Shown here in pieces: positions 5,519 through 42,158 of a stretch of 42,957 nt of DNA. The notes beneath the pieces are model-generated. The model saw only the letters and a list, made by a program, of their open reading frames with translations. It was not told where the DNA came from and did no database searches. Where the stretch lies: positions 1-42,957 of the forward strand of contig NZ_CAXQBR010000050.1 in NCBI RefSeq assembly GCF_964222135.1. Reading direction: 5' to 3'. The translations under genes and the position numbers were made by a program. Numbering within the stretch: position 1 is the stretch's first letter; every line of letters starts with the position of its first letter. The stretch comes from Euzebya sp. (GTDB taxonomy: Bacteria > Actinomycetota > Nitriliruptoria > Euzebyales > Euzebyaceae).

Positions 5519-5530
5519 GGGGTGGTCTGG

Positions 5531-20856: not shown

Positions 20857-20880
20857 CTACTATGCGCACGACGTACTACG
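20857..20880. promoter_or_regulatory. Weak CTACTA-type motif between ccdA and ccmA
   Basis: CTACTAT and GTACTACG flank a 9-base spacer in the 164-base divergent gap between ccdA and ccmA. It recalls, but does not match, the CTACGA inverted repeats at 39.9, 41.36 and 41.52 kb. The halves are not true reverse complements, so this may be chance. Confidence 0.25.
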
Positions 20881-20910
20881 CCCTTGAAGTAGGACAATCC
20901 TCGCCACCCG

Positions 20911-23074: not shown

Positions 23075-23189
23075 CCTCGGTTGGATCGCGCTGGGCTACG
23101 GCGTCACCGTCGTAGGCATCGGCGGGTACCTGTGGAGTCTTCGTCGACGGATCTCCCGTGCCAAGGACACCACGGGAGCCGACCGATGA
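23067..23189 (+). CDS. ccmD: Small membrane protein CcmD
   Basis: A 40-residue GTG-started frame that overlaps the ccmC stop by 8 bases and the ccmE start by 4. It has one membrane helix (IALGYGVTVVGIGGYLWSL) followed by a basic stretch LRRRISRAK, exactly the CcmD layout. CcmD helps release holo-CcmE from CcmC. Size, topology and place between ccmC and ccmE all agree. Confidence 0.85.
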   Translation: MPDLGWIALGYGVTVVGIGGYLWSLRRRISRAKDTTGADR

Positions 23190-26017: not shown

Positions 26018-26817
26018 GCGCCGCCGGCCGATCCGCAGATCCCGGCTTGGACCCCCACTTCGAGGCTGCCCTGCGGGACCTCGCAGAGACACGTCGACAA
26101 CTCGAGGCGGGGGAGATCGACCACCGCACCGCCGAGGAGTTGTCCCGCCGCTTCGAACTCGATGCGGCCAAGGCGATCGGTGCACGGGCACGAATCGATG
26201 ACGAGGACGCCCATCCCGGTGAGATGAGCCACGGCCGCAGTGCCGTCCGGACGCTGACCGGCATCGTCGCGGTGGTGGTCGTCATCGTCGTCGCGACGGT
26301 CCTCCTGGTGCGCTCTGCCGATGAGCGCGAGCCAGGCGAGCTCATCACGGGGAACGTCGACGGGGCGGCGGGCGCGGGCCGGGATCGGTCCGAGGTCACC
26401 AACGAGGAGATGGAGGCGGTGGTCGCCGAGAACCCGTCGGTCACCGGCATGCGAATGCGGCTTGCGGACCGGTACTTCGCCGAAGGTGAGTACGACCTCG
26501 CCCTCGATCACTACATGGCGGTGCTGGAACACCGCGACGAACCCACGGCCATGGCTCGCATCGCCTGGATCCTGCACGACAGCGGAGAAGTCGAGCTCGC
26601 CGAGCAGATGGTGCGTCAAAGCCTGCGGCGGGCCCCCGACCACGTCGAGGCGCGGTGGACCCTCGCCAACATCCAACTCGCCGGTCTGGCGAACCCGCAG
26701 GCTGCAGCCGAGACGCTCCGGAGCCTGCGTGACGACCCGGACCTGCGACGTGAGGACCGTGTGCTCGTCGAGAACCTCCTCGTCCTGGCAGAACAAGCGC
26801 TGTCCGATGAGCGCTGA
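26014..26817 (+). CDS. ccmI: CcmI-like TPR protein of the heme lyase
   Basis: 267 residues from the GTG at 26014 that overlaps the ccmH stop. A coiled cytoplasmic start (LRDLAETRRQLEAGEIDHRTAEEL) is followed by one membrane helix (about 85-100) and an outer TPR region (MRMRLADRYFAEGEYDLALDHY and further repeats). This is the split CcmH/CcmI arrangement, in which CcmI binds apocytochrome c and presents it to CcmF. The sequence is divergent; topology and position support the name. Confidence 0.78.
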   Translation: MSAAGRSADPGLDPHFEAALRDLAETRRQLEAGEIDHRTAEELSRRFELDAAKAIGARARIDDEDAHPGEMSHGRSAVRTLTGIVAVVVVIVVATVLLVRSADEREPGELITGNVDGAAGAGRDRSEVTNEEMEAVVAENPSVTGMRMRLADRYFAEGEYDLALDHYMAVLEHRDEPTAMARIAWILHDSGEVELAEQMVRQSLRRAPDHVEARWTLANIQLAGLANPQAAAETLRSLRDDPDLRREDRVLVENLLVLAEQALSDER

Positions 26818-27406
26818 CCTCCGTCCGCGTGGCAGGTGGATCCGGCGTGGAGCCGTCCTGGCCGCCATCGCGGCGTTGCTCCTCGCCGCCGCCTTCGGCA
26901 CGCGCTTCGGCCGTGATCCCACACTCGTCGATTCGCCACTGATCGGGCAACCCGCGCCACCGATCGATCTCATCCGGTTGGACGGAGAGGCGTCGTGGTC
27001 CCTCGCAGACCAGGCCGGCGACATCGTCGTCGTGAACTTCTGGGCGTCGTGGTGCGTCCCCTGCCGTGAGGAGCACGACGACCTCGTCGCAGCGGCGGCA
27101 CAGTACGAGCGGGCGGGTGTGTCCTTCGTGGGGATCGTCTACCAAGACGACCCGTCACAAGCCGTAGCCTTCCTCGACGAGCTCGGGCACGGCTACCCAC
27201 ACCTCGTGGATCCCGGCTCCCGCACGGCGATCGACTACGGGGTGTTCGGGATCCCCGAGACCTACTTCATCGACCGCGACGGCACCGTCGTCGCAAAGGT
27301 GACAGGCGCCAGCGACCTGGAGCTGCTCACCCGCACCCTGGACACGATCCTCGCGGGCGACGTTCCCGAGAGCGCAACGCGGCCCGGGTACCAGAACCAA
27401 CGCTGA
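26807..27406 (+). CDS. ccmG: Membrane-anchored thioredoxin CcmG/DsbE (TlpA-like)
   Basis: 199 residues from the ATG at 26807, overlapping the ccmI stop by 11 bases. Signal anchor at about 15-31, then a thioredoxin fold with NFWASWCVPCREE (C83, C86) and the cis-proline GIPETYFID (P150) characteristic of CcmG/DsbE. It reduces cytochrome cysteines before heme attachment and is itself reduced by CcdA (divergent gene at 20024-20746). It is the last gene of the operon. Confidence 0.92.
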   Translation: MSADLRPRGRWIRRGAVLAAIAALLLAAAFGTRFGRDPTLVDSPLIGQPAPPIDLIRLDGEASWSLADQAGDIVVVNFWASWCVPCREEHDDLVAAAAQYERAGVSFVGIVYQDDPSQAVAFLDELGHGYPHLVDPGSRTAIDYGVFGIPETYFIDRDGTVVAKVTGASDLELLTRTLDTILAGDVPESATRPGYQNQR

Positions 27407-28725: not shown

Positions 28726-29310
28726 TCATCCGAGCGCGGTGGATGCGATGGTGAAGACGGCGAACCCGAGCAGGAGGGCGACGGAGGAGGTCTTTGAGTC
28801 GTCGTCGCTCTCGTGGGCCTCCTGGATCATGTCCTCGAACGCCGCGACGGTGAAGAGACCTGCGGTGCCGACGAGGGCCGCGAGTTGGTAGCCTTCGGGT
28901 CGTCCGCGCAACAGCAGGAATGACAGCGCTGCCCCGGTGAGGACGGGCAGGACCGCGGCGGCGGACAGCCACAGCCGTCGACGGCGGGGCACGTCGTTGG
29001 CTCGGAAGGTCATCGTGGCCGCGGCGCCCTCGGGGATGTCGGCGAGGATCTGCCCGATGGCGAGCACGAGGCCGACGCCTGATCCGATCGAGGTGCCGGC
29101 GCCGATCATGAGGCCGTCACCGAAGAGGTCCGTCGCGATGGCGAGGTAGATCAGCCACATCCGTCCTCCGGTGGTGCTGCGCCGTTCGATCAACGCCTGG
29201 GCGACGAGGTACAGCACCCCCCCGGTCGTGAATGCCGCCGCGATGTGCCAGCCGTTGAGCACGTCGAGGGCTCGCGGCATGATCTCGACGGCGACCACCG
29301 CGACGACCAC
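28726..29310 (-). CDS. ZIP-like divalent metal transporter with a damaged 5' end
   Basis: Open from the GTG at 29310 (194 residues), but similarity to the copy at 16547-17253 continues upstream in frame to about 29437 (LLALLPAAGNITGGTIAEL). That part has no start codon: an ATG at 29490, which overlaps the M23 stop by 4 bases, reads 16 codons into an in-frame TGA at 29440-29442. Either the gene is broken by that stop, there is a sequence error, or a short protein lacking the first helix is made. ZIP features include ATDLFGDGLMIGAG, LADIPEGAAATMTF (like HNxPEG) and FEDMIQEAHE. It should import divalent cations. Confidence 0.72.
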   Translation of the reverse strand: MVVAVVAVEIMPRALDVLNGWHIAAAFTTGGVLYLVAQALIERRSTTGGRMWLIYLAIATDLFGDGLMIGAGTSIGSGVGLVLAIGQILADIPEGAAATMTFRANDVPRRRRLWLSAAAVLPVLTGAALSFLLLRGRPEGYQLAALVGTAGLFTVAAFEDMIQEAHESDDDSKTSSVALLLGFAVFTIASTALG

Positions 29311-29486
29311 TCCGGCGGCTGCGTGCAGCGCGCGGTTGCGCCATGCGTCCGATGGGGGGCTGAGCTCGGCGATCGTGCCGCCGGTGATGTTGCCGGCGGC
29401 GGGCAGGAGGGCGAGCAGGAGCGCGAGGAGGATGGGCGATCAGTCCCAGTGGGGCACTACCCGGTGTGGCGCCGGAGGCTTGGGGG

Positions 29487-30572
29487 TCATGAACTGCGAC
29501 AGAGCAGGTCGGCGAGAGGGAACGGGTTGACCGTCGGCCCGCCGCCGGGCCGGACCTGCCAGTGGAGGTGCGGAGGGGTGCCGGCGGCGTTTCCGGAGGT
29601 GCCGGCCAGGCCGATGACGTCGCCGGCTGAGACCTGCTGGCCGGTCCGGACGGTGGTGGCGTCGAGGTGAGCGTAGTAGTAGGCGTTGCCGGCGACGTCC
29701 TCGAGGTTCACCGTCAGGCCTCCAAGCCGGTTGTCGCCGACCCTGACGGTGCCGTCGGCGACGGCGTAGACGGGGGTGCCGCGGGCGGCGAACATGTCAA
29801 CCCCTTCGTGGCCCCGACCGCCTGAGCGGGGGGCGCCCCAGGAGTCGGTGAAACCGTTGGGCAGACCCAGCGGGCAGGCCATAGTGGGTGGTGGCTGGTC
29901 GAGATGGGTGGCCGCGCGTGCCGCCTCTTCGGCAGCAGCTCGGCGTGCGGCTGCGCGCCGAGCGTCTTCCAGGCGGTCTTGTGCGGAGGTGACCACCGCC
30001 CGCGTAGCGGCCAGCTCGGCCTCCAGACGTCGGCGGGCATCGGCCAGGTCGGCGGCGCCCGCGGCGACTCCGACGAGCGTCATGGCGTGCTGGGCGACCT
30101 CGTCGGCGACGAGGTCAGTGGTCCGTCGCAGCCGGTCGGCGCGGGCGGCCATGCCCACGGGGAGCCGTTGGAGCAGCGCGATGCGATGCAGGGCGGATCC
30201 GACAGAGGGAGATGCCTGGACCGCGTCGATCGCCCACTCCGCGAATCCTCCGGGACGCATGTACAGGCGTCGGATCGCCACCTCGACGCCAGCTCGTGCC
30301 GATGCCACGCGCCCGCGGGCTGCATCGACGCGTTGCCCTACGTCCCCCCGTTCGTCCTCCAGGCGGGCCAGATGGCTGATCGCCTCCTCGTACTCGCCGC
30401 TCAGCCGGTCGAGCCCGGCCTCGACGGACGTCAGTGCGTCACGAGCCTCGTCGAGTTGCACCTCGGCGTCCTCGACGTCCAGCCCTGCCGCGCCGCTCGG
30501 GACCGCGACGACCACGACCAGCAGCACGGTCACGGCCAGCCGGCTGGGTGTAGGGACCGGTGGACTTCTCAT
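29487..30572 (-). CDS. Secreted M23 peptidase with N-terminal coiled coil (EnvC/LytM-like)
   Basis: 361 residues. Signal peptide at about 10-29, a long Ala/Glu/Arg coiled coil (about 33-220), then an M23 domain with the zinc motif HEGVD (H255, D259), middle His H302 (YYYAHLD) and HLHW (H335, H337). All catalytic residues are present, so it should cut peptidoglycan crosslinks. It has a 4-base overlap with the small membrane gene upstream and ends on ATGA into the ZIP-like gene. It is one of three M23 proteins in this operon run. Confidence 0.9.
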   Translation of the reverse strand: MRSPPVPTPSRLAVTVLLVVVVAVPSGAAGLDVEDAEVQLDEARDALTSVEAGLDRLSGEYEEAISHLARLEDERGDVGQRVDAARGRVASARAGVEVAIRRLYMRPGGFAEWAIDAVQASPSVGSALHRIALLQRLPVGMAARADRLRRTTDLVADEVAQHAMTLVGVAAGAADLADARRRLEAELAATRAVVTSAQDRLEDARRAAARRAAAEEAARAATHLDQPPPTMACPLGLPNGFTDSWGAPRSGGRGHEGVDMFAARGTPVYAVADGTVRVGDNRLGGLTVNLEDVAGNAYYYAHLDATTVRTGQQVSAGDVIGLAGTSGNAAGTPPHLHWQVRPGGGPTVNPFPLADLLCRSS

Positions 30573-30862
30573 GGGTCGCGGGGTGGGGGGCCGTCATCGT
30601 CGGCTGCGGCGTCGGGTGAGCTCCGGGGATGAGGCTCGGTGGGCTTCTGGGGGTCACCGCCCCCCACCGCGTCGTCGTGGCCGGCTGGCGACGGCGGCTG
30701 TGGTGTGGACGTCCTGGTCATGACACGCCGGACCATGAGCCCCAGGACGGTGACGGCCACGGTGACCGTGACCAGGAATGCGATGGTGGGGCCCGCGCCG
30801 CCGCTGTCCTGGGTGGTCGCGAGGAGCGGTGGGATGCCCGATGCGACGACGTGCACCGTCAT
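30569..30862 (-). CDS. Small single-helix membrane protein, function unknown
   Basis: 97 residues with one membrane helix (TIAFLVTVTVAVTVLGLMVRR, about 26-46), then a Pro/Asp-rich cytoplasmic tail. The N-terminus (MTVHVVASGIPPLLATTQDSG) has no clear cleavage site. No family is recognised. It overlaps both neighbours by 4 bases, which argues that it is a real gene of the operon. Confidence 0.65.
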   Translation of the reverse strand: MTVHVVASGIPPLLATTQDSGGAGPTIAFLVTVTVAVTVLGLMVRRVMTRTSTPQPPSPAGHDDAVGGGDPQKPTEPHPRSSPDAAADDDGPPPRDP

Positions 30863-31428
30863 GTCTGGTCCGCTTCCGGGGCGTCTGGGGGACGGGGTGT
30901 CCGGTCGGTTCCGGGCACGAAGGGGTCTTCGACGGCGTAGGCTTCGATGAAGGTCTCGATGGCGGACAGGTCGAGGTCGTCACAGCGCTGGACCACACCC
31001 CACGCGGTCATCGCCACGGCGCTGTCATCAAGCCGTTCGTACGGGGTGACGGCGGCCTGGCCGGCGTGGGCGGACTCGATGCGGTCGGTGAGCGACTGCA
31101 CGTCGTCCTCGGCGAGTTCGTCGTAGGTGATCACGACCGCGCCTGACTCAAGGATGCTGACCTGCTGTGGTTCACTGAGGGCGTTGGACGGCGGGTAGAT
31201 GGCGATGTCCAGCGCACCAGATGCGTGCCATCCCGACGAGGGAGGCACAGAGCTGTAGGGCACCGGCGGCTTCGCATCGCCGAGGAGGTGGCTGCCGAAC
31301 TGCACCAGGGGGAACTCCGGTGCATCACAGGACGCGGTGGCCGACGGCTGGTCTCCCGTGCCCGTGTCACCACACCCGACCAGCCCGAAGAGCATGACCA
31401 GCGGCCCGAGCACGTGCAGCGGCTTCAT
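30859..31428 (-). CDS. DUF3105-type lipoprotein
   Basis: 189 residues with a lipobox (FGLVGC, Cys about 19). The mature part follows the DUF3105 plan: PPSSGWHASG, then LSEPQQVSILESGAVVITYDEL, then VTPYERLDDSAVAMTAWGVVQRC. The His of the usual ALEHG motif is replaced (SILESG). DUF3105 has no known activity but recurs with copper and redox genes in this window. The start overlaps the thioredoxin-fold gene by 4 bases. Confidence 0.7.
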   Translation of the reverse strand: MKPLHVLGPLVMLFGLVGCGDTGTGDQPSATASCDAPEFPLVQFGSHLLGDAKPPVPYSSVPPSSGWHASGALDIAIYPPSNALSEPQQVSILESGAVVITYDELAEDDVQSLTDRIESAHAGQAAVTPYERLDDSAVAMTAWGVVQRCDDLDLSAIETFIEAYAVEDPFVPGTDRTPRPPDAPEADQT

Positions 31429-32375
31429 GCCGTGGCGGTCGCGAGGGCGGCGATCTCATCGGGCAGGACGGTGAGGGGGCCGTCGAGCCGGCCGACGACC
31501 GTGCCGGCGCCATCGATCCCGAAGATCCACGGCTCGGATTGCAACTGGAAGGCCTCGACCTGGTCGGCCAGGGTGGTGCCCGCGTCGCTGAACACCTCGA
31601 GGTGGATCCACTCGATGCCCTCGGGCACCTCACCGCCGGTCCGCACGTCCTCGACCACGTCCACCGTCGGCCCGCAGATCGCCGTCTCACAGAACGCCGG
31701 GGTGGCGATGGTCAACATGACCGGCCGTCCCTCAGCGAGGGCGGTGTCCAGGCTGGCGGCGTGCATGTCACAGGGAGGCTGACGGGTGCAGATGGACTCG
31801 AACCCCAATGGGTCATCCAGTGTCGGGGTGGCGACCGCCGGAGCTTCTTCACCGGTGGCCAGCACCACCGAGGATTCCGGGTCGGCGACCCGCAGGGCCG
31901 TCTGCCCGGCCCCGCCGTCGGCGGTCACGGCGATCAACGGCACCGTGCCGGCCTCCGGCAGGTCCAGGCGGACCGAGTACATGCCCAAGGGCTGGTTGGG
32001 GACGTCGTGGAACGTCGTGGTCAACGGTCCCTGCAGCGCCTCGTTCATCCTGACGCCGGCGTACACCGTCACCTCCTGGTCACGGACCGGGGTGTTGTCC
32101 GGTCCGACCAGTCCGAAGGCGAAGAGCCGATCCTCGCCGGTGAGCGTCTCGAAGCTCGCGTTGATGACCGACAGGTCGGCCGTGCGGTCCGGGGCGATCT
32201 GCTCCAACAAGGTGGCCTGAGCGGCTTCGCTGACCGGTGTGGCGGCGATGTCGGTGCCGTCGTCATCGGACTCACAGCCGACGACCAGCAGAGCCATGGC
32301 GGCGGTCGCGCCACGCAGCAGCGTCCGGCGTGTCGGCGTGCGGGCAGGGTGGGTCGTGTGTTCCGTGTGGATCAC
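31425..32375 (-). CDS. Thioredoxin-fold lipoprotein with possible Tat signal
   Basis: 316 residues. The N-terminus has a twin-arginine-like TRRTLLRGATAAM and lipobox LLVVGC (Cys about 34). A beta-rich domain (about 60-165) precedes a TlpA-like domain with paired cysteines in SICTRQPPCDMH and FCETAICGP, then WIFGIDGAGTVVGRLDGPL, a thioredoxin C-terminal strand. The CETAICGP site resembles a redox CxxxxC rather than a classical CxxC. It probably acts in thiol or metal transfer at the cell surface. It overlaps both neighbours. Confidence 0.7.
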   Translation of the reverse strand: MIHTEHTTHPARTPTRRTLLRGATAAMALLVVGCESDDDGTDIAATPVSEAAQATLLEQIAPDRTADLSVINASFETLTGEDRLFAFGLVGPDNTPVRDQEVTVYAGVRMNEALQGPLTTTFHDVPNQPLGMYSVRLDLPEAGTVPLIAVTADGGAGQTALRVADPESSVVLATGEEAPAVATPTLDDPLGFESICTRQPPCDMHAASLDTALAEGRPVMLTIATPAFCETAICGPTVDVVEDVRTGGEVPEGIEWIHLEVFSDAGTTLADQVEAFQLQSEPWIFGIDGAGTVVGRLDGPLTVLPDEIAALATATA

Positions 32376-33298
32376 CAGGTCTCCTCACAATCGGCGCAGT
32401 GGGCGTGGTCGGGCACTTCGACTTGCAGCGTGGAGTGGCTGATGCCGTGCTCGGTGCGCAGGAGGTCACGGGCGCGGTCGAGCACCACGTGGTCGTCTCC
32501 GCCGTCGGCGATCCGGAGGTGGGCACTGACCACATCCATCCCGGATGTCAGCGTCCAGACGTGGAGGTCGTGGACGTCGGTGACATCTGGCAGGCCGGTC
32601 AGGTCGGCACGGATCGTGTCGACGTCGACGTGCGGCGGAGCCTGTTGCAACAGGACCCTGAGCGCCTTGCTGCCCAGGCGCCAGGTCCGCGGCAGCACGA
32701 ACAGGCCGATGCCGACGGCGAAGATCGGGTCGATCAGCGTGAACCCGGTGGTCTGGATGACGATCGCGGCGATGATCACCCCGACCGAGCCGAGGGTGTC
32801 GGCGAGGACCTCGAGGTAGGCGCCTTCGACGTTGAGTGACTCGCCTGCGCCCCGTCTGAGCAACAGGTAGGCGATCACGTTCACGACCAGACCGACGACG
32901 GCGACGACGAGCAGCGGGGTGCTGAGGACCTCAGGCGGATCACCGAAGCGGCGGACGGCCTCGACGAGGATCCAGATGGCCACGCCGAAGAGCAACACCG
33001 CGTTGGCGAGTGCGGCGAGGATCTCCAGGCGGTACAGCCCGAACGTCCGATGCGATGCCGCGTCGCTCCGGATGGCCGCCTGGATGGCGGCCAACGCCAT
33101 GCCCAACCCGAGGACGTCGGTGAACATGTGTGCCGCATCACCCAGCAGCGCCAAGGAGTTGGTGATCAGCCCCCCGATGAGCTCCACGAGGAAGTAGCCG
33201 CCGGTCAGGCACGCCGCCGCCAAGAGGGGGCGGCGGTGGGCGGCTCCCGCGTGGGCGGCGTTGACGTGTGCGTGGTCATCACCCATGTCGGTCCTCAT
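32372..33298 (-). CDS. Cation diffusion facilitator (CzcD/ZitB-like) metal exporter
   Basis: 308 residues; the start at 33298 overlaps the copCD stop, with an alternative ATG at 33286 behind GAGGA. The His-rich N-terminus is followed by six helices with the metal motif GDAAHMFTD (H57, D61) in helix 2 and the matching HxxxD-like site in helix 5. The C-terminal cytoplasmic domain has VTDVHDLHVWTLTSGMDVVSAHL, a CDF signature. It exports Zn/Cd/Co by proton exchange. It ends with HCADCEETW, a short Cys/His tail that may bind metal. Confidence 0.92.
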   Translation of the reverse strand: MRTDMGDDHAHVNAAHAGAAHRRPLLAAACLTGGYFLVELIGGLITNSLALLGDAAHMFTDVLGLGMALAAIQAAIRSDAASHRTFGLYRLEILAALANAVLLFGVAIWILVEAVRRFGDPPEVLSTPLLVVAVVGLVVNVIAYLLLRRGAGESLNVEGAYLEVLADTLGSVGVIIAAIVIQTTGFTLIDPIFAVGIGLFVLPRTWRLGSKALRVLLQQAPPHVDVDTIRADLTGLPDVTDVHDLHVWTLTSGMDVVSAHLRIADGGDDHVVLDRARDLLRTEHGISHSTLQVEVPDHAHCADCEETW

Positions 33299-35139
33299 CT
33301 GATGGTCAGCGTCGACGTCGCATCCTCACTGGTCCCGTCCAGGTCCACGCCGATCTGGACCTGGTAGTCGCCCGGTTCGGGGAGTCGTTGTGAGAGGGTG
33401 GTGAAGTGGCCGGGGCCGGCCACCAACAGCTCGACGGTGAGCGCGTCGCCGGAGGGGGCGATGAGGCGCATGGTCGTGTCATCGACCGGACGTGGCCGTC
33501 CGTCGGGGCCCAGGATGTAGAGGTGCACCACGTTGGGACCCGACTGGGCCGGGTCGACGGTCAGGTTGACCGTCGCGGTGTCGGTCAAGGCGATGGTGAC
33601 CGACTGGATGCGGCTGGCGACCTCTGCCTCCGCGGGGATGCTCGACGCCAGACCACCGGCCAGACCGAGGGCGAGGACCATGACGGCGATCTCGACGCCG
33701 GCGAAGCGGCGGAACAGTCCGACGGTATGGCTGTCCGCGGTCCGGGCCAGTCGCGGGAGCACCGTCGCGCGGTTGCGCCAGCCCAGCCCGGCGATGACCA
33801 CGAACGCGACCACCTTGCCGAGGACGAGCAGCCCGTATCTGGTGTCGGTCAGCTGTTCAACCGCACCGACGTGCAACAACGCCGAGCCGACCCCGGACGC
33901 GAGCAGCAGCCAGATGGCCGTCCCTGCCACCTTGCTGAACCGCCGGGCGGGGCCGACGAACTCCTCGGGCCCGGCGATGAGCCCCCAGACGACCACGACG
34001 GCCAGTCCCCCCACCCACGAGGTGGCCGCCGCGACGTGGAGCCAGTCAAGGCCGACGGCGATCCACATGGGATCGGTGGCACCCGCATGCCCCCACAACC
34101 CTGGGAGCGCCGCCGCGACGGTGGTCGCCGTGGCGGCCATGACCAACCCTGCGCGTCCAGCGGTGACGGCGAGGAGGGCCGCCACCCCGATGGCCACCAG
34201 CCCCTGGACCGCCACCAACAGCCCGAAGCGGGTGGACAAGAACCGGCCGATCAGGTCGCCCGTCACCGCTTGGGGCAGGGGTTCGGCCGCAGCGGTGGAG
34301 AGCCCGAAGATGAACAGCAGCGCTGACGCGACGGCCAGGCCAGACGCCGCGGCAACGGCCAGGCGTCGCAACCGGCGACGCGCCGACGGGGCGCCCTCGT
34401 CTGGACCGACCATCCACATGAGCGCGAGCAGCGTGCCGACCAGCACTGCGAGGGCCGCGTAGTCGACCACCCGGGCGACGAACAAGCCCGCTGAGCTGCC
34501 CGGACCGGCCTCCTGCAGCTCGAAGGACGCCGGGTCCACCCCGGCCGGCGCGGGTTCGGCGACCGGCGGCTCGGGGTCACCCTCGGGGGGAGGGGATGGG
34601 TCCTCAGGTGTGGGTGCTGGACTGCTGTTCGCGCCGCTGCTGGCCGGTTCAGAGTCCGCCGCCGGTTGACCCGGCGCCTCCGACGCCGCTGCAGTCGGGA
34701 AGGGTGTCGGGGTGGCCGGCGCGGGTGGTGCCGGCGTCGGGCTGCCAGAGACTGCCGGTTCGTAGCCGAAGGTGTAGCGCGATTCCACCGGGTGGCCGTC
34801 GGCACCGATCACCCGGAACACGACCGTGTAGGTGCCCGATGTGGTGAGCGGCTGCATCGGCACCGTTGCCACCGCACCGTCGATGGCGGCCGACCCGGCA
34901 TCGACCCGCTGGCCTACGGGGTCGAACACCTGTACACCGGAGAAGGTCTCCTCGATCGGTTCGCTGTAGGTCAACGAGATCTCCACTGGCGACTCGGTGA
35001 GGGTGGCACCGGCCGGCGGATCAGTCACCTCCAGCTGGGCGTGTGCGGCCGCCGGACCGGCGCTGAGGAGTACACCCGCACCCGCGGCCACGAGCGCCAA
35101 CACGACGCTGACCGCACCCGTGACCGTGACGGCCCGCAC
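33295..35139 (-). CDS. CopC-CopD fusion copper protein (YcnJ-like)
   Basis: 614 residues. The signal peptide ends at AAA, exposing H33 as the first mature residue (HAQLEVTDPPAGA), as in the CopC histidine brace; D and H of ADGHPVESRY complete the Cu(II) site. A Pro/Ser-rich linker (about 130-200) joins it to a CopD domain of about eight helices (LDWLHVAAATSWVGGLAVV and so on). A C-terminal extracytoplasmic beta domain (about 505-614) is YtkA-like. It should bind and import or sequester copper. It overlaps the CDF gene and is 12 bases from the M23 gene upstream. Confidence 0.92.
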   Translation of the reverse strand: MRAVTVTGAVSVVLALVAAGAGVLLSAGPAAAHAQLEVTDPPAGATLTESPVEISLTYSEPIEETFSGVQVFDPVGQRVDAGSAAIDGAVATVPMQPLTTSGTYTVVFRVIGADGHPVESRYTFGYEPAVSGSPTPAPPAPATPTPFPTAAASEAPGQPAADSEPASSGANSSPAPTPEDPSPPPEGDPEPPVAEPAPAGVDPASFELQEAGPGSSAGLFVARVVDYAALAVLVGTLLALMWMVGPDEGAPSARRRLRRLAVAAASGLAVASALLFIFGLSTAAAEPLPQAVTGDLIGRFLSTRFGLLVAVQGLVAIGVAALLAVTAGRAGLVMAATATTVAAALPGLWGHAGATDPMWIAVGLDWLHVAAATSWVGGLAVVVVWGLIAGPEEFVGPARRFSKVAGTAIWLLLASGVGSALLHVGAVEQLTDTRYGLLVLGKVVAFVVIAGLGWRNRATVLPRLARTADSHTVGLFRRFAGVEIAVMVLALGLAGGLASSIPAEAEVASRIQSVTIALTDTATVNLTVDPAQSGPNVVHLYILGPDGRPRPVDDTTMRLIAPSGDALTVELLVAGPGHFTTLSQRLPEPGDYQVQIGVDLDGTSEDATSTLTIR

Positions 35140-35151
35140 CGCGGCACGTCG

Positions 35152-36744
35152 TCACCTCGCACGATCGATCACCGCCCTGACCGCCTCATCGGGCAGCGCC
35201 GCGACGCCGCCGATCGCATGGACCTCCTCGATGCCGTCCCGGGCGTCGACCCAGTCCAGCACCGGCCGGCTGCGGTCAACCGCGTCCATGAGCACCATCA
35301 CCGAACCAGAGGCGACCAGCGCCGGTCCTGCCGCCAGCGCATCGGGGTAGTCGCTGGCGGTGGCCAGGTGCAGGACCCCGTCGTCGGCCTGTCCCTCATC
35401 CAACAGCGCGTCGGCGACGACCAGCGCCGTCTCCAGACGACTCGGCCCGGCCAGCCGCATCGTCGTCACGGTGTCGGCAAGCCGGGCCTCGACCTGCGGA
35501 TCGACGGCCATGATCCCCCCGACGACGTCCACACGCGCAGGGCCGATACGGTCGATGGCGTTCGCCACCACCGTCGGCAGTTCGTCCGGCCTGGTCAACA
35601 ACACCGGCGTCCGTCGGTAGGCACCGAGCAGGCTGGCCATCAGCGCATCGGGCCATCCCCCGCCGGCCGTCCGCCCTTCACCAGCCGCCAGCAGGACACC
35701 CGATGCGTCACCACCGGCAGCGACCACCGCGTCGGCCACGCGTGCGGACAGCTCGTACTGATCGTCACCGGTGATCCGGATGATCCGGTCCGGCGCCAGG
35801 TCCGCGGTCGCGGACAACTCGGCGACGACCTCCGGTGCGACGTCTCCGATGACGACCGCGTCACGTGGGTCCAAGCGCTCCAACTCTGAGGCGAGCGCGT
35901 CGGGGAGCCCACCGCGAGCTGGGCTGAGGAGAACCGGCCCGTCCAGGGCAGCCGCGAGCGGTGCGGCGACCAGCGCGTCGGTGTACCGATCGGCCCTGGC
36001 CACCACCACGGTCCGGGCCGTTGGGAAGCCATCCGCCGACAGCGCCGCGGCCGTGCCGATGCGGTCGTCACCTGCGTCGCGGTGCATGACGGCCTGATCG
36101 ACACCGCCAGATCCGGTGGTCCTCCCGGCGTCCTCCGCGGCGCTGAGCTCCGGGTAGGGGTTGGTCTTCCCCGTCACACCCCAGTCACGATCGTTCCAGA
36201 TCTCGAAGTGCAGTTGGTCGATCCCGCAAGCCGCGTTCCCCGAGGAGCCGATCCAGCCGATGTGCTCCCCACGGTCCACCCGAACGCCGGCCAAGGTCCC
36301 CCGATCCGCGAGTTCGCGGACCAGTCGAGGGCTGAACGCATGCTCGACACCCCCCAGCCCATCACAGCCGTTCGGCCGGTCGGGTGTGTCGTTGTTCAGG
36401 TGGACGTAGAAGTAGCCGCGGCCGTCATCACCCGCGACGGCGAGGTAGTAGGAGTCACACGGTGCCCCGACCGGGCAGTCCTCCCCCTTGGCCTTGATGA
36501 TCTCCCCGCCCACGGCGGCGTAGACCTCGCGCATCTGGGGGGCCAGAATGTCGGTGCCCTCATGGCTGCGACCACCACCACGCGGGGCACCCCAGGTGTC
36601 GGCATAGCTGTCCAGCGGCAACTGGACGGGGAACCACACCCCGTCCGACGTCGCCCCGGCCGGTACGGCGGACAACACGAGCGAGACGGACAAGAAGACG
36701 ACGACGGACAGGACGGGACGTCGATGACGCCGGTGTGCTGGCAT
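35152..36744 (-). CDS. Secreted M23-domain protein with cell-wall-binding type 2 repeats; HxH altered to QLH
   Basis: 530 residues from the ATG at 36744 (GAGG upstream). Signal peptide to about residue 31; M23 domain (about 50-190) with HEGTD (H61, D65) and H115. The usual HxH at the second zinc motif reads DQLHFEI (Q177, H179), so one catalytic histidine is missing. The rest (about 215-530) is three cell-wall-binding type 2 repeats (DRIGTAAALSADGFP, AVVIGD, GPSRLETALVVADALL). It probably binds the cell wall and may be a reduced-activity or inactive peptidase. Confidence 0.88.
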   Translation of the reverse strand: MPAHRRHRRPVLSVVVFLSVSLVLSAVPAGATSDGVWFPVQLPLDSYADTWGAPRGGGRSHEGTDILAPQMREVYAAVGGEIIKAKGEDCPVGAPCDSYYLAVAGDDGRGYFYVHLNNDTPDRPNGCDGLGGVEHAFSPRLVRELADRGTLAGVRVDRGEHIGWIGSSGNAACGIDQLHFEIWNDRDWGVTGKTNPYPELSAAEDAGRTTGSGGVDQAVMHRDAGDDRIGTAAALSADGFPTARTVVVARADRYTDALVAAPLAAALDGPVLLSPARGGLPDALASELERLDPRDAVVIGDVAPEVVAELSATADLAPDRIIRITGDDQYELSARVADAVVAAGGDASGVLLAAGEGRTAGGGWPDALMASLLGAYRRTPVLLTRPDELPTVVANAIDRIGPARVDVVGGIMAVDPQVEARLADTVTTMRLAGPSRLETALVVADALLDEGQADDGVLHLATASDYPDALAAGPALVASGSVMVLMDAVDRSRPVLDWVDARDGIEEVHAIGGVAALPDEAVRAVIDRAR

Positions 36745-36793
36745 GGGAGAACCTCGGTGTGGAGCACCAGCAGCGGTGCAGCTGGAGACGCAG

Positions 36794-37411
36794 TCAGCCC
36801 AGCCACACCGGGGGAGCCCGCGACTCCGCCACCGACCACAGCGTGGACCGAAGGGCTCCACCGACGTACACACACCCCGAGGGACCACCACTGGCCACGC
36901 TGACCCAACCCAGCCGGACGACGACCGCCAACGCCGCCACGATCACCCCCGACGCGCTGTCGAGGACCAGCCGCGCGGCGATCACCGCAATCGGCGCCAG
37001 CCACAACCACGGGTCCACCACGACATGGCTGAGCTCACCGCCGGCCATGACGGTCTCGGTCGCGAGGTACACACCCAACACCGACGTCGGGGCGATGACC
37101 CCCCGACCTGGCTCTGCATGGACCGAGGAACCCAGCCGGCAGCGGACTGCCACGGCCAAGCTCACAAGAGCACCGACGCCCGCCGCACCCATGTGCACCC
37201 GATGACCGTCCGTCAACGCTGGATGGCCGACCAGCTGGGCCACCACGGCCAACACGGCATGCGCGGTGATCGCGCCGGTGACGGCACGAGCGATCGCGGA
37301 CGCCGCTGAGCCCATGTCACGTCGAGCGTAGGGGCGCACGACCTCACCCGCAGGCTCCGAGCGCGGCAACCTCCGACCGATCGCCCTCACTGATCCATCG
37401 GTAGCGATCAT
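36794..37411 (-). CDS. Multi-helix membrane protein, function unknown
   Basis: 205 residues starting at an ATG that overlaps the upstream stop (ATGA); an internal start at 37315 is possible. About four helices (TGAITAHAVLAVVAQLVG, MGAAGVGALVSLAVAV, LWLAPIAVIAARLVLD, GVIVAALAVVVRLGWV). No recognised family. It sits between the envelope gene above and the cell-wall-binding M23 protein and is part of the same run. Confidence 0.6.
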   Translation of the reverse strand: MIATDGSVRAIGRRLPRSEPAGEVVRPYARRDMGSAASAIARAVTGAITAHAVLAVVAQLVGHPALTDGHRVHMGAAGVGALVSLAVAVRCRLGSSVHAEPGRGVIAPTSVLGVYLATETVMAGGELSHVVVDPWLWLAPIAVIAARLVLDSASGVIVAALAVVVRLGWVSVASGGPSGCVYVGGALRSTLWSVAESRAPPVWLG

Positions 37412-38499
37412 TCCCCGCTCACCACCGCCGACGGCACGTCGTCGGGCTCGTCATCCCACTGGGGCAGGAGCGCACGGGTCCCGAGGACCGAGGCGATGCC
37501 GAGGGGGACGATCTGTGCAAGGCTCGCGGCGATCACGCCGCGTGTGAGGAACTCCGGGAACACCGTCGCGGTCTGGCTTGCGGCGAGCACGCTGGCGTAG
37601 AGCAGTCCCTGACCGATGAAGATGGCGCCTGTTCCGGCACCCAGCGCCACGAAGGCGCCCTCCCCTCCGATGATCGTCCGGAACGCTGCATACATCGCGA
37701 TGCTGATGAAGAAGGCGGTCTGCAAGGCCGATGTGATGCTCTGCGTCAGCGGTATCGGGGTGGCCACCAGATCATCGACGAGGTGGATCCCGTTGGCGAT
37801 GGCGAGGAGCAACAAGACCGTCCCGGACACCAGGGACAGCCCTCGCCAGCGGCCGGACCCGACATCCGGACGCGTACGCCACAGAGCCCATCCGATCGGG
37901 ACGCTGAGCAGGACGAGGGCGGTGATCAGCCAGGGCAGTGGACCGCTGCCGGGGACCCAGTAGAGCTCGCCGATGATCTCGGCGGGGCGCCCGCCGATCT
38001 CGACGGGGACCGTCCACTCGTTGACGAGATGGCGCGACGCAGGATCGGTCTGCACGACGGGGGGGTTGGTCGTGGCCATCCAGTGGATCCGGTGGTCGTG
38101 CCAGGCAAAGGCGCCCTCGCTCGACACCTGCTCCCACCGCGGCTCGGCGTCACCGTCGACCCCTCTCGGCACGACCGTCTGCCCGTACCGGTCAGCGTTG
38201 AGGTACGTGGCAGGCGAGTTCTCATTGCGCCACGCGCCGTCGGGTCCGATGCGGAGGTACGGTTCGCCGGTGTAGCCGGCGACTGCTACCTCCTCCTCAC
38301 CGTCGTTCCGCACCAACAGGTACTCGTCAGAGTTGACGATCTCGAACGTCACACCATCGTCCTCGGGGGCCGAGGTGATGACCGAGAGGAAGTTCGTCGC
38401 GTCAGACCCCCGCCCGTGGGCGGCCGCAGGGGACGCCGTGGCCATCAGCGCCATGATGCTGAGCATCACGGCCACACCGCCTCGTTGCAGTGCACGCAT
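37408..38499 (-). CDS. Secreted/membrane protein with HDHRIHWM motif, unknown
   Basis: 363 residues from the ATG at 38499 (GAGGG upstream). Signal peptide cleaved near AAAHGRG, an outer beta-rich domain (about 30-185) with a His cluster FAWHDHRIHWMATT, then five to six helices in the C-terminal half. An N-terminal His after the signal plus the WHDHRIHWM motif suggest metal binding, perhaps copper, but the family is not known to me. Such proteins are seen near copCD in actinobacteria (recalled, not checked). It overlaps the next gene by 4 bases. Confidence 0.7.
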   Translation of the reverse strand: MRALQRGGVAVMLSIMALMATASPAAAHGRGSDATNFLSVITSAPEDDGVTFEIVNSDEYLLVRNDGEEEVAVAGYTGEPYLRIGPDGAWRNENSPATYLNADRYGQTVVPRGVDGDAEPRWEQVSSEGAFAWHDHRIHWMATTNPPVVQTDPASRHLVNEWTVPVEIGGRPAEIIGELYWVPGSGPLPWLITALVLLSVPIGWALWRTRPDVGSGRWRGLSLVSGTVLLLLAIANGIHLVDDLVATPIPLTQSITSALQTAFFISIAMYAAFRTIIGGEGAFVALGAGTGAIFIGQGLLYASVLAASQTATVFPEFLTRGVIAASLAQIVPLGIASVLGTRALLPQWDDEPDDVPSAVVSGE

Positions 38500-38546
38500 G
38501 GTGTCGCCCTCGATCGATGGGTGTGGCCGTGCTCTGGCCCGCACGT

Positions 38547-39896
38547 CTACATGTGGCCGCGCGGGTTGACCGGGCTGCCGTTCACTCGAACCTCCCAGTG
38601 GAGGTGGTTGCCGGTTGAGTACCCCGTCGTCCCCACGTAGCCGATGGTCTGGCCTTGGGACACCTGCTGGCCGACGGTGGATCCCAGGCGTGATTGGTGG
38701 GCGTAGAGGGTGGCGACGCCTCGCCCGTGGTCGATGATGACCGCGTTCCCGTAGCCGCCTCGCCAGCCGGCGAAGATCACCGTTCCGGCACCGGCCGCAC
38801 CGATGGGCGTCCCCCCGGCCGCGGCGATGTCCATTCCCGCGTGCAGACGCGTGGTCCCTGATATGGGATGGGTGCGGTAGCCGAACTCCGAGGAGATCCG
38901 ACCGCCGACTGGGATTATGAACCCACCCCCTCCACCGGTCGAACCGGCGTCCGGGTCTGCTGCTGTGGCGTCCCCAGATCCCGAAGGGTCTGGCGAGGAG
39001 GCGCTCGCCTCTGAGGACTGACCACGACCAACGGTTTCGGACGTGGCCTCCTCGGCTGCAGCCCGACGGGCTTGCTCGGCGGCGGCCGCCAGCTCCCGCT
39101 CGATCTGCGCCGATTCGGCCTCGAGGTCAGAGACCAGCGCCTCAGCAGATTCACGGTCAGCCTCAAGAGCCGCGAGAACCCTCCGCTTGTCCTCGGCTTG
39201 CGCGGTCACCTCGGCCAGCAGTTCTTGCTGATCGGCGACGAGTCGTGCCACCCGGTCACGTTCCTCCGCCGCGGCCACGCGCTGGTCGTCTTGCCGTGCA
39301 CGGAGACGCCCGAACTCCTCCTCCGCTGCGGCGATCCGCGCCTGGAGGACATCGATCTCCTCATAGACGACTCGGTCGCGGCTGACGATCGCTTCCATGT
39401 ACGTGGTCGCCTGGGCGAAGTCAGCGGCGTCTCCTGCACTGAGGACGGGGAGCGACTGACCCGGCCGAGCGCTGATGTAGGACTGCCGCACGCGGGCCTC
39501 GTACTCGCCTCGGGCGGCATCAAGTTCTCCACGGGTCAGCTCCAGCCGTTCGGCCGTGGATTCCAGCTGTGCGGTGGTTGCGGCCAGGGTCCGCTCGCGA
39601 TCGGCCAGTTCGGCCTCGGCAGCGGCAAGCTCATCGTTGAGGGCCGTCAACGCGGCCTGGCGGGCCTGTTGCTCCGCGAGGATCGCATCGAGCTGCTCCA
39701 GGGAGACCTCGAGCTCACCACCAAGGCGCTGCACCTCTGCTTCAGCCTCCTCTATGCGGTCCTGGACCGCATCGAGGTCCGCCTCAGACTGGGCATCGAC
39801 CGGCGCCACCGCCGCAGTGAGGAGCACGGCTGCAGCCAGTGCGAGGGCCGACAAAGCGCGCAGGGAGGCGCGGCGCAGGTGGGGAAGCACATCCAT
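38547..39896 (-). CDS. Secreted M23 peptidase with long coiled coil (EnvC/RipA-regulator-like)
   Basis: 449 residues. Signal peptide to about residue 36 (PVDAQ), two coiled-coil stretches (about 37-140 and 185-285), a low-complexity Ser/Gly linker, and a complete M23 domain with HAGMD, YAHQ and HLHWEV. It should be active on peptidoglycan. The start ATG lies only 14 bases from the CTACGA-type operator with no ribosome site, so the mRNA may be leaderless or nearly so. It appears to be the first gene of an 11-kb run reaching to 28.7 kb. Confidence 0.9.
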   Translation of the reverse strand: MDVLPHLRRASLRALSALALAAAVLLTAAVAPVDAQSEADLDAVQDRIEEAEAEVQRLGGELEVSLEQLDAILAEQQARQAALTALNDELAAAEAELADRERTLAATTAQLESTAERLELTRGELDAARGEYEARVRQSYISARPGQSLPVLSAGDAADFAQATTYMEAIVSRDRVVYEEIDVLQARIAAAEEEFGRLRARQDDQRVAAAEERDRVARLVADQQELLAEVTAQAEDKRRVLAALEADRESAEALVSDLEAESAQIERELAAAAEQARRAAAEEATSETVGRGQSSEASASSPDPSGSGDATAADPDAGSTGGGGGFIIPVGGRISSEFGYRTHPISGTTRLHAGMDIAAAGGTPIGAAGAGTVIFAGWRGGYGNAVIIDHGRGVATLYAHQSRLGSTVGQQVSQGQTIGYVGTTGYSTGNHLHWEVRVNGSPVNPRGHM

Positions 39897-39909
39897 CGAG
39901 GCGTAGAAG

Positions 39910-39929
39910 CTACTATTGCCATGTCGTAG
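39910..39929 (-). promoter_or_regulatory. CTACGA-type inverted repeat before the M23/copCD operon
   Basis: CTACTA (39910-39915) and TCGTAG (39924-39929) form an imperfect inverted repeat with an 8-base spacer in the gap ahead of the M23 gene. On the minus strand it reads CTACGA-N8-TAGTAG, nearly the same arms as the two sites at 41.36 and 41.52 kb. It is a candidate shared operator. Confidence 0.5.
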
Positions 39930-40062
39930 GACCGCTGGCCGACCGGACGGGTCGCATGCGGCTCACGGCGTGCGAGATACCAGCGTCCACCACAGGCCGG
40001 GCACGGAGAGACCGGCACGGCGATCGCACCGAGCTGCTCGACAGCTCATGCGCAGGGAGGGT

Positions 40063-40680
40063 TCACCGGCGGTCGAGCAGTTGTTCCATCTGTGCGATCT
40101 CACTGGCCTGGCTGGTGATGATCGCCGAGGCGAGCTCACGAACCACTTGATGATCGCTGCGCGACAACACCGCCTCAGCCATGCCGACCCCGCCACGGTG
40201 GTGGGCGATCATGAGCTGGAGGAAGCGCCGTTCCGCCTCCACCCCGGACGCTTGTGCCAACTCCCGGAGCTCCGACTGGCTCCCCATGCCAGCCATGGGC
40301 ATGCCAGCCATGCCCATCCATGTCATCGGCGCCTCACTGCCGGCAGCCGGCAGCATCCACAGGTCCAACCACGCCTGCATCTGCCCGATCTGCGCCTGCT
40401 GGGACAGCATGATGTCCTCCGCCAGGATGCCGATCTCCTGGCTCGGGGCCGCTCCGAGGATGATGCCCGCCATCTCGACCGCTTGGGCGTGGTGGGCCGA
40501 CATGTCTCGGGCGAACCCGGCCTCAGGCGAACGGTCCCCGGGAGTGGTCCGTCCGACCACCACCGTTGCCACAGCCGCACCGACCAACAATGCGACCACG
40601 ACCACACTGACCATCCACCATCCGCTGAAGGAGCCTCCGGTGGAGTCGGTACATGGAACCGTGACGGGAGGAGCGGTCAT
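40063..40680 (-). CDS. DUF305 membrane protein, Met-rich (copper-associated)
   Basis: 205 residues with one N-terminal membrane helix (about 22-42), then a DUF305 helical domain with DMSAHHAQAVEMA (H63, H64), MIAHHRGGVGMAEA (H160, H161) and a Met-rich insertion MTWMGMAGMPMAGM (119-132). Paired HH-motifs and Met clusters suit Cu(I) binding, as DUF305 is often found with copper genes. The start overlaps the DUF3105 gene by 4 bases. The biochemical role is unproven. Confidence 0.88.
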   Translation of the reverse strand: MTAPPVTVPCTDSTGGSFSGWWMVSVVVVALLVGAAVATVVVGRTTPGDRSPEAGFARDMSAHHAQAVEMAGIILGAAPSQEIGILAEDIMLSQQAQIGQMQAWLDLWMLPAAGSEAPMTWMGMAGMPMAGMGSQSELRELAQASGVEAERRFLQLMIAHHRGGVGMAEAVLSRSDHQVVRELASAIITSQASEIAQMEQLLDRR

Positions 40681-41309
40681 GTGGGTTCGCCCACGCCGCG
40701 AGTACAGACTGCACCCGGCTCAGGGGTTTGCGGACCCTGCTGGAACGCACGTATGAAGTCCTCCAGCACAGGGTCGTCAGCGTCGTCGAGCTGAAGTTGC
40801 TTGCCCCAGGCTGACGCCACGATCGGTGACGGGAGGTCGTCCCTGGGGCTGACCAGGACGTAGCCGCCGGCCCGCTCGGCCAGCGCCTGCACCGCGGCTT
40901 CGTCCAGATCCGACCGGTAGGTGATCCAGACCGCGCCGTGCTCGAGGGAGTGAACGGCGTTCTCCTCCCCGATGGGTTCGGGGTAGAAGCCGCAGTTCTG
41001 CCACACCGGCGAATGGTCCCCACCCGCTGGCGGCACGGTGTCATAGACGACGTCTCCTTCCACGTGCCCGCGGCTGTCGACGGTGATGTCGGTGATCCCC
41101 TGCGGCGGGTCGACCGGGAGGACGTCACGAACCGCGCTGAACAGGAGGACCGCGAGTGCGCCGCCGCCGAAGACGATCAACAGCGCCCAGCGGAGCAACC
41201 GAACGCGGTTCTCTCGCCGTCGGACATCCCGCTCCCGAGCGATCCGGTCTTGGCGCCGTGCCTTCTGTCGCTGCCGCTTGGACAGCATCACACCATCTGG
41301 CTCATCCAC
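40677..41309 (-). CDS. DUF3105 membrane protein
   Basis: 210 residues from the GTG at 41309, which sits 7 bases after GGAGGT (the frame is open to 41348). A basic cytoplasmic start (SKRQRQKARRQDRIARERDVRRRE) precedes one membrane helix (about 37-58). The outer domain has the DUF3105 motifs AVHSLEHGAVWITY and SPIVASAWGKQLQL and ends with a C-terminal QQGPQTPEPGA. The function is unknown. Its coupling to DUF305 and the operator upstream place it in a copper/redox unit. A broken copy lies at 16.2-16.5 kb. Confidence 0.85.
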   Translation of the reverse strand: MDEPDGVMLSKRQRQKARRQDRIARERDVRRRENRVRLLRWALLIVFGGGALAVLLFSAVRDVLPVDPPQGITDITVDSRGHVEGDVVYDTVPPAGGDHSPVWQNCGFYPEPIGEENAVHSLEHGAVWITYRSDLDEAAVQALAERAGGYVLVSPRDDLPSPIVASAWGKQLQLDDADDPVLEDFIRAFQQGPQTPEPGAVCTRGVGEPT

Positions 41310-41357
41310 GTATGACACCTCCGACTTCGGTCGATGGGGGGCATGCATCCGCGGATG

Positions 41358-41374
41358 CTACGACACCATCGTAG
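41358..41374 (-). promoter_or_regulatory. Perfect CTACGA-N5-TCGTAG operator candidate
   Basis: CTACGA (41358-41363) and TCGTAG (41369-41374) are exact reverse complements, 48 bases before the DUF3105 start. The arms resemble dyads bound by BlaI/CopY-type winged-helix repressors (CTAC/GTAG cores), but no such regulator is encoded in the window. Confidence 0.6.
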
Positions 41375-41507
41375 TAGTGGCACCCGGCGCCATCCCGGCG
41401 AACAGGTTCGGTCCAAGGACTGACAGACAGTCGTCGAACGTCAGCCCACCGCGGAGCTCCGGGCCGGTTCAACGTCGCAGTCGCAGCCGACGCCGATCAC
41501 GTGAACT

Positions 41508-41537
41508 TTGGACCGCGGTGCTACGACGCGATAGTAG
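41508..41537 (+). promoter_or_regulatory. Promoter overlapping a CTACGA-type operator
   Basis: TTGGAC (41508-41513), a 16-base spacer and GATAGT (41530-41535) form a plausible -35/-10. The inverted repeat CTACGA-CGCGA-TAGTAG (41521-41537, one mismatch to a perfect dyad) covers the -10. It would drive the copper-chaperone gene to the right and could be blocked by the same factor as the divergent site. Confidence 0.55.
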
Positions 41538-41651
41538 TAGTGCGGGCAGCGCTGTGCGGTCGATGGGTTGCCGGGTCATCCGGCGCGACAGGGAGAGGAG
41601 ACGTAGTGGCAGAGACGCCTCGTGGGGACGTCCCGACTCCGTGGCGAAGTG

Positions 41652-42158
41652 ATGGTCCCGCTGCGGACGCCGTGGCGGCGACGATCCGTTCACCTCGTGA
41701 TCCTCGCCCTCATCGCGGTCGGCTGCACTTCGGCGCGCGGTGATGTGTCGGAGTTGGTGTTCGAGGACGTCCGCAGCCCGGTGGCGGCCTCTGCCGCCGC
41801 TGCGGCGGTGTACCTCGACGTCTTCAACAACAGCTCAGCCGACCAGGTCCTGACCGGTGCCAGCACCACGGCTGCGAGGCAGGTCCAGGTGCATTAGACC
41901 ACAATCGATCCAGACGGTCGCGTGGCGATGGACGAGTTGCCCAGCTTGACCATCCCTGCCGGGGACTCGATCTCCTTCGGTCCGGGGGATGTCCACCTGA
42001 TGCTGATCGAGGTGACACCCGTGGAGGTCGGCGGGACGATCGACGTGACCCTGGAGTTCGGTGAGGACACCCGCACTGTGACGGCGTCGGTCATCGATCC
42101 CACCGATGCGCGCAAGCGACCGTCAGTGCTCTCCCTCGACCAGCCGGGGTCATCGTGA
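41652..42158 (+). pseudogene. PCu(A)C copper chaperone broken by one amber stop
   Basis: A lipoprotein signal (LVILALIAVGC) is followed by the PCu(A)C fold YLDVFNNSSADQVLTGASTTAA. The frame reaches the first copper ligand region VQVH, then TAG at 41895-41897. The same frame continues to 42158 with DPDGRVAMDELPSLTIPAGD and PGDVHLMLIEVTPV. The H-x(n)-M and HLM ligands (H, M, HxM) are all present, so one base (likely CAG to TAG) is the damage. A strong GGAGAGGAG at 41592-41600 precedes a GTG at 41606 in another frame, so the 5' end may also be shifted. PCu(A)C hands Cu(I) to cytochrome oxidase. Confidence 0.8.

Follow-up and report, generated by a model that had tools for sequence, protein, structure and literature searches.

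Described systems and the copper and M23 genes of Euzebya

PetR/PetP of Synechocystis is a copper-responsive pair of a BlaI-family regulator and a BlaR1-family protease (PMC7896320), YcnJ of Bacillus subtilis is a CopC-CopD-YtkA copper importer regulated by YcnK (PMC13344008), and CopM is a copper metallochaperone of the DUF305 family (PMC4335983). Control of a wall enzyme by a metal is described for zinc: ShyB of Vibrio cholerae is an M23 endopeptidase under Zur, linked to zinc starvation (PMC6381278). Here, a stretch of 42,957 bp from Euzebya sp. was analyzed (the whole of contig C50, hereafter the window; the genome, G000, comprises 5.06 Mb in 111 contigs), in which genes for copper proteins are packed on the minus strand with genes for three M23-type proteins (M23a, M23b and M23c). 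At a probability of roughly 0.55, the locus is best explained as a copper-supply and copper-handling regulon under a BlaI repressor and an M56/M48-type membrane protease, similar to PetR/PetP, into which spare wall hydrolases were recruited.

Each part of the locus has a known relative, namely CopC-CopD importers, CopM, PetRP-like switches, FtsEX-type hydrolases and metal-controlled M23 enzymes. As in PetR/PetP, a BlaI gene is followed by a membrane protease gene, the loci concern copper and electron transport, and dyads precede copper genes; unlike PetRP, which targets plastocyanin/cytochrome c6 and two unknown proteins, the putative targets here extend to wall hydrolases and, in relatives, to lipoprotein acyltransferases. 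The CopC-CopD protein shares with YcnJ the domain order (CopC, CopD, YtkA-like tail) and the conserved His/Asp residues, but no M23 genes are described with YcnJ, and the YtkA match falls under the Pfam cut-off. As with ShyB, an extra M23 enzyme with metal-linked control would stand beside housekeeping M23 enzymes; however, the switch would be of the BlaI type, the genes are copper genes, the wall is actinobacterial, and several M23 genes lie in a copper operon. M23a resembles the FtsEX-linked coiled-coil hydrolases (of the PcsB/RipC/EnvC kind), being 66% identical to a housekeeping M23 protein encoded immediately behind ftsE-ftsX in its own genome (ftsE and ftsX identified from reading their translations), but it has no adjoining ftsEX and heads a copper operon. 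Unlike CopM, the DUF305 gene is paired with DUF3105 and not with CopRS.

What is new is that isoforms of wall hydrolases are encoded in a copper operon with a candidate operator of the BlaI type, an arrangement for which no clear precedent was found in the literature, the search not being complete. The initial annotation of the window had called wall remodelling coupled to metal and thiol handling a system not known to be described, although metal control of wall hydrolases is already described for zinc (ShyB/Zur, PMC6381278); it was the copper version that was not found in the literature searches. If the explanation given above is true, copper homeostasis, respiration and cell-wall turnover would be joined in one circuit via copies of FtsEX-type hydrolases under a BlaI/protease switch, and BlaI/M56 pairs without a beta-lactam sensor would have a testable job.

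The M23 and copper proteins and their conservation

The eleven-gene run occupies positions 39896 to 28726 of the minus strand, in the order M23a, TM10, TM9, M23b, CopC-CopD (CopCD), CDF, a thioredoxin-fold lipoprotein, DUF3105b, a small membrane protein, M23c and ZIP. All the genes that the initial annotation had joined in this run are present, and the close packing that it had described (overlaps, or gaps under about 50 bases) was confirmed: 4-nt overlaps occur at six junctions within the run and at the DUF3105a-DUF305 junction, and gaps of 2 nt (M23a-TM10), 12 nt (M23b-CopCD) and ∼49 nt (TM9-M23b, taking the ATG at 36744 as the start of M23b) were measured. The DUF3105a-DUF305 pair lies upstream, as it had also stated, separated from M23a by a 166-nt gap. 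The M23c-ZIP gap is uncertain because ZIP lacks a standard start codon where its N-terminus would naturally lie; the reading frame opens at 29438, directly behind a stop codon, and no ATG, GTG or TTG occurs before 29310.

M23a (38547..39896) and M23c (29487..30572) are coiled-coil M23 peptidases (Pfam M23, 119.9 and 83.5 bits, respectively) with complete catalytic motifs: the HAGMD/HEGVD zinc ligands, the middle catalytic AH and HLH are all present. M23b (35152..36744) is a secreted protein with an M23 domain (31.0 bits), three CWB2 repeats (100.8 bits) and four invariant cysteines; orthologs were found in G022, G023 and G024, the other three genomes of the genus. HEGTD and VHLN are retained in M23b, and HLH is replaced by QLH in 4/4 orthologs. 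The lost residue is the first His of the M23 HxH motif, and a solved chain with an M23-like stretch in the PDB has H at this position. Since the catalytic His is missing in every ortholog, the three peptidoglycan hydrolase-type proteins of the initial annotation were counted as two likely hydrolases, M23a and M23c, together with M23b, which, judged by its sequence, is probably an inactive, M23-like, wall-anchored pseudoenzyme. QLH as a pseudoenzyme trait specific to copper clusters was rejected, given that an M23-CWB2 protein of Acidimicrobiia without copper neighbours (L073) likewise carries QLH; the replacement is therefore a feature of the M23b subfamily.

In the tree analysis, M23a of the window grouped with the M23a relative of the G024 copper locus with moderate support (82/81) and on a long branch; from its sequence, M23a is read as a spare copy of the ftsE-ftsX-linked hydrolase. 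The M23c copies from the copper clusters of G000, G022 and G023 formed a clade of their own (97/99), separate from the remaining M23c copies in those genomes, and the G024 M23c beside coxBAC and another copy in G024 were close duplicates (100/99). M23c-type genes were therefore recruited into copper/cox loci on at least two occasions. PDB profile searches with M23b, the thioredoxin-fold protein and TM10 returned only weak or spurious matches, and the AlphaFold models were too poor for use (pLDDT 40 for the thioredoxin-fold protein and under about 35 for the M23 part of M23b).

CopC and CopD are fused in one chain (33295..35139; Pfam CopC 81.5 and CopD 73.9 bits), in which H33, D114 and H116, as well as H351, H368 and H423, are invariant across five orthologs. 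The C-terminal tail matches PF13115 (YtkA) with 14.9 bits, below the cut-off of 25.9, and is conserved with an invariant His. The protein resembles the copper importer YcnJ, and by this analogy copper import is its predicted activity. The reading as a heavy-metal tolerance system is not supported; given the resemblance of the CopC-CopD-YtkA-like protein to YcnJ and the ties of the locus with Ccm and cox genes, copper supply is at least as likely. The upstream pair consists of a DUF3105a membrane protein (40677..41348; 148 bits; orthologs in G022, G024 and G021) and a DUF305/CopM-family metallochaperone (40063..40680; Pfam 156 bits), which matches the NCBIfam CopM model just above its cut-off (91.1 vs. 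90); both genes are on the minus strand.

Conservation was surveyed in 66 genomes of the class, four of them in the genus of the window (G000, G022, G023 and G024), with the genes of the relatives called by a simple codon-usage caller. In this neighbour-gene survey, which the initial annotation had proposed, the set proved to be conserved: CopCD, TM10, M23b, the thioredoxin-fold protein and DUF3105b occur together in 4/4 genus genomes, at ∼50–60% identity and in varying order. CDF joins this core set in G022, and M23c does so in G022 and G023 (three of the four genus genomes, G000 included). The G024 locus comprises DUF3105a, DUF305, a Lnt-like gene, BlaI, an M56-type protease, an M23a relative, CcdA, Ccm genes and P-type ATPases in its first part, and DUF3105b-Trx-M23b-TM10-CopCD-TM9 (Trx being the thioredoxin-fold gene), a Cu-type ATPase, a CsoR-like gene, CopC, a cupredoxin-like gene, an M23c relative and coxBAC in its second part, the CsoR-like and cupredoxin-like genes being assigned by eye. 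In G021, of another family (L038), CDF, CopCD, DUF3105b, the thioredoxin-fold gene, TM10, DUF305 and DUF3105a are present and M23 is not.

As a control, 40 neighbourhoods of M23c-domain relatives in the phylum, copper-cluster copies left out, were inspected, and none (0/40) held copper or BlaI genes. M23c was accordingly rejected as a general marker of copper clusters, and the M23-copper linkage is therefore a property of the genus, bar the sole outside exception of an Acidimicrobiia metagenome-assembled genome (L085) with M23c, DUF305, BlaI and a Cu-type ATPase. By simulation, three M23 genes within 10.4 kb have P ∼0.004 (∼14 M23 genes in 5.06 Mb), which is a weaker argument for the M23-copper set than its conservation in relatives. 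The coupling of metal and wall genes suggested by the initial annotation is thus conserved in the genus, absent from the 40 control neighbourhoods and accompanied by a shared candidate operator.

Candidate operators and a proposed BlaI-type switch

A dyad with the consensus CTACKA-N5/8-TMGTAG precedes the M23a-led operon, the DUF3105a-DUF305 pair and the gene of a PCuAC copper chaperone (sites given without strand). The dyad before PCuAC (CTACGACGCGATAGTAGTAG, 41521..41540) and that 9 nt before DUF3105a-DUF305 (CTACGACACCATCGTAGTAG, 41358..41377) fit both the 17-bp form (6-bp arms, 5-nt spacer) and the 20-bp form (CTACKA-N8-TMGTAG); the dyad 13 nt before the M23a-led operon (CTACTATTGCCATGTCGTAG, 39910..39929; CTACGACATGGCAATAGTAG on the coding strand) fits the 20-bp form. 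From shuffles of the window, no such dyads are expected. The 20-bp form has three sites in 5.06 Mb, all of them in the window before the three gene starts. When spacers of 0–16 were allowed, four sites were found genome-wide, three of them in the window; the fourth, in front of a Rieske protein within a Ccm locus (L129 8642–8660, G000 contig C79), may be a fourth target or due to chance.

The 17-bp form has 10 sites in the 66 genomes, two of which are in the window. Among the eight others, one lies 115 bp before the BlaI gene of the G024 copper locus. A second, in G060, precedes an Lgt gene by 67 bp and has a BlaI gene at a distance of 1.0 kb; a third, in G044, stands in front of an operon that encodes a Met-rich protein, DUF3105 and Lgt, with an Amidase_2 gene beside it and a BlaI gene 4.1 kb away. 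The remaining five are not near a BlaI gene. Under random placement, proximity of 3/8 sites to one of ∼85 BlaI genes has P ∼2e-6. The G044 locus also carries the 20-bp form, before a DUF2933 gene, which supports the spacing seen before M23a, and in G024 a dyad-like sequence, CTACTTGACCGTAGTAG, stands just before the M23a gene of the cluster (L068 11831–11847). Shared regulation of the M23-led operon and the copper genes is well supported; what induces it and what the hydrolases are for is inferred. Neither the terminator scan nor the sigma-70 scan was informative.

BlaI genes are present in 62/66 class genomes. A BlaI gene with an adjacent BlaR1-family membrane protease gene lacking a beta-lactam sensor was found in the own genome (contig C27) and in G024, with dyads before candidate target genes and before blaI. 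The own pair is oriented divergently to coxBAC and adjoins a P-type (Cu-type) ATPase gene, and a one-mismatch dyad, CTACTACGTCGGCGTAG, lies between BlaI and cox. The BlaI proteins score 70.7 bits (own) and 81.3 bits (G024). The own protease, of 226 aa, scores 19.4 bits for M56 (cut-off 31) and 34.3 bits for M48 (cut-off 20.3), and that of G024, of 241 aa, 31.9 bits for M56. Identity to the own BlaI is 54% for the BlaI proteins from G044 and G060 and 50% for that from G024; each of the BlaI genes in G044 and G060 has a protease gene behind it, and Lgt, DUF3105, Ccm/CcdA, cupredoxin or amidase genes lie nearby. The BlaI motif of C. thermocellum obtained by DAP-seq, with electrophoretic mobility shift assays on single repeats, consists of six-base inverted repeats 5 nt apart (PMC8457756), the same 6-5-6 geometry as here, which supports the BlaI reading. 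Position, geometry and co-occurrence all point to BlaI as the candidate protein binding the dyads, and PetR/PetP offers the analogy by which the regulon would respond to a metal at all.

Genes for Lgt-type lipoprotein acyltransferases stand with the same dyad at BlaI-protease loci of other genomes (L141 and L140), the former also with Amidase_2 and sortase genes, and a Lnt-like gene lies beside BlaI in G024. The regulon may extend to the maturation of lipoproteins.

In the proposed mechanism, BlaI dimers on the three dyads would repress the M23a-led operon, DUF3105a-DUF305 and PCuAC until a copper signal led the membrane protease to destroy BlaI, as PetP suggests. According to their families, CopC would capture Cu(II) outside the membrane and CopD would move Cu inward; DUF305, PCuAC, the CX4C lipoprotein (the thioredoxin-fold protein) and DUF3105 may carry copper and the thiol/redox steps toward cuproenzymes, e.g., cytochrome oxidase, and CDF and ZIP would correct zinc. 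M23a (a second copy of the FtsEX-type hydrolase) and M23c (a second copy of a housekeeping hydrolase) could sustain wall cutting if copper disturbs the zinc-dependent housekeeping copies, or could alter the wall for a new envelope load; the reason for switched copies would be either the displacement of zinc by copper, which can occur in M23 enzymes, or a change in envelope load. M23b would grip the wall via its CWB2 repeats without cutting. The arrangement suggests that the cell adjusts its wall when the copper supply changes. A broader proposal is made tentatively, at somewhat less than even odds: that a PetRP-like BlaI/protease pair in this class controls a copper-and-envelope regulon of M23 isoforms, an amidase (in a relative), lipoprotein acyltransferases and copper import and trafficking, i.e., a copper-conditional wall-remodelling set.

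Several observations weigh against a BlaI-controlled copper regulon with recruited hydrolases. From base composition, ∼4 dyads (spacers 0–16) are expected, so that the count is not in excess; the argument therefore rests on their clustering at gene starts, and chance may account for the Rieske site. The M23a dyad fits the 8-nt spacing only, and the PCuAC dyad precedes a damaged gene with an internal stop. The window holds no BlaI gene, the own pair being on contig C27. The clusters of G022 and G023 keep M23b/M23c with copper genes but without a dyad, and the operator is therefore not essential to the M23-copper linkage; their BlaI proteins are of a different subfamily (∼38% identical to the own BlaI). 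Moreover, the M23b-copper link is restricted to one genus (4 genomes), and no sign of copper tolerance is seen in M23a or M23c.

The strongest alternative, though an unlikely one, is that the locus supplies copper for cytochrome oxidase, that the M23 enzymes open the wall for large envelope complexes or lipoproteins, and that the switch senses copper scarcity and not excess; the initial annotation had proposed something similar, namely that the system might make room for large surface complexes. This alternative agrees with the resemblance of the CopC-CopD-YtkA-like protein to YcnJ, a protein that supports oxidases when copper is limiting (PMC13344008). The Ccm gene set in the window, the cox genes beside the cluster in relatives and the recruited G024 M23c directly before coxBAC fit it as well, as does the fourth dyad, although ∼4 such sites are expected by chance; DUF305, CDF, ZIP and the P-type ATPases, however, point to tolerance too. 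To our knowledge, most bacteria build such oxidases without dedicated M23 enzymes.

Less probable again is hitch-hiking, in which a mobile island gathered copper genes and M23 duplicates with no functional tie between them. Kinase, sigma-factor and TrwC-like relaxase genes lie at 870–9046 of the window, and related genes of the same types stand beside the G023 cluster (L037 15140–19998), a company that suggests a mobile or integrative element; the contig also carries a primase-type gene. On G023 contig C4 (L070 5958–6931), ZIP is fused to the tail of M23c, a deletion remnant at the site where G022 has the whole cluster, while the cluster that G023 possesses is at another site (L037). Damaged gene copies at 16.2–17.3 kb of the window are of the same tenor. 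Nevertheless, the set is maintained across 40–50% sequence divergence in four genomes, M23c-type genes came to copper/cox loci more than once, the dyad of the copper genes precedes the M23-led operon, and M23-copper linkage was seen in 0/40 controls. BlaI/BlaR1 systems are classically beta-lactam sensors, and the related regulons include wall and lipoprotein enzymes (Amidase_2, Lgt, Lnt-like), but a wall-stress regulon in which the pair senses wall damage and the copper proteins are passengers is highly improbable, as the proteases have only 226–246 residues, the two tested by Pfam are without a penicillin-binding sensor domain, and all loci found centre on copper, Ccm or cox genes, with no beta-lactamase-type gene seen among them.

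Other genes of the cluster and its neighbourhood

The lipoprotein at 31425..32375 has an N-terminal domain and a thioredoxin-like part. The gene assigned to the thioredoxin fold by the initial annotation is thus present, but its product matches no Pfam or NCBIfam family and its motif is CX4C (FCETAIC) rather than CXXC. When its surroundings were compared in 19 other genomes, it was found adjacent to DUF3105b in several families of the class, even without CopCD (L041, L050, L054). DUF3105b itself (30859..31428) is a lipoprotein (70.7 bits), and CDF (32372..33298) is a cation efflux protein (Pfam Cation_efflux, 148 bits). The ZIP-type transporter (28726..29438) scores 26.6 bits, under the Pfam Zip cut-off of 35.1, and is 73% identical to its G022 ortholog.

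TM10 (37408..38544) has a signal peptide, C-terminal membrane helices and an invariant WHDHRIHWMA motif; it is conserved across the genus and also in G021 and G017. A chromosomal TM10 paralog (51–60%) with a broken frame stands alone beside a NUDIX gene in G000 (contig C83, 7850–8883). TM9 (36794..37411) is a small membrane protein and a weakly conserved partner of CopCD; neither TM10 nor TM9 has a Pfam match. The small membrane protein at 30569..30862 has position-equivalent small proteins in G023 and G024.

On the plus strand, the PCuAC gene (41622..42158) and a CcdA-type gene (41.6–42.9 kb together) are part of the same neighbourhood. PCuAC is matched by Pfam on both halves and interrupted by an in-frame TAG (41895–41897), and the CcdA-type gene diverges from its relatives near 42836, just short of the contig end (42836–42957); both may reflect decay or an assembly error. 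Genes of the Ccm (system I) type, with CcdA and TlpA, lie at 20024–27406 of the window, and no CXXCH protein occurs among the genes called in the window. At 16200–17250, damaged second copies of a DUF3105 gene and a ZIP gene were observed, the ZIP copy being 68% identical to the G022 ZIP with its frame broken by stops; these copies are a decayed duplicate of parts of the cluster.

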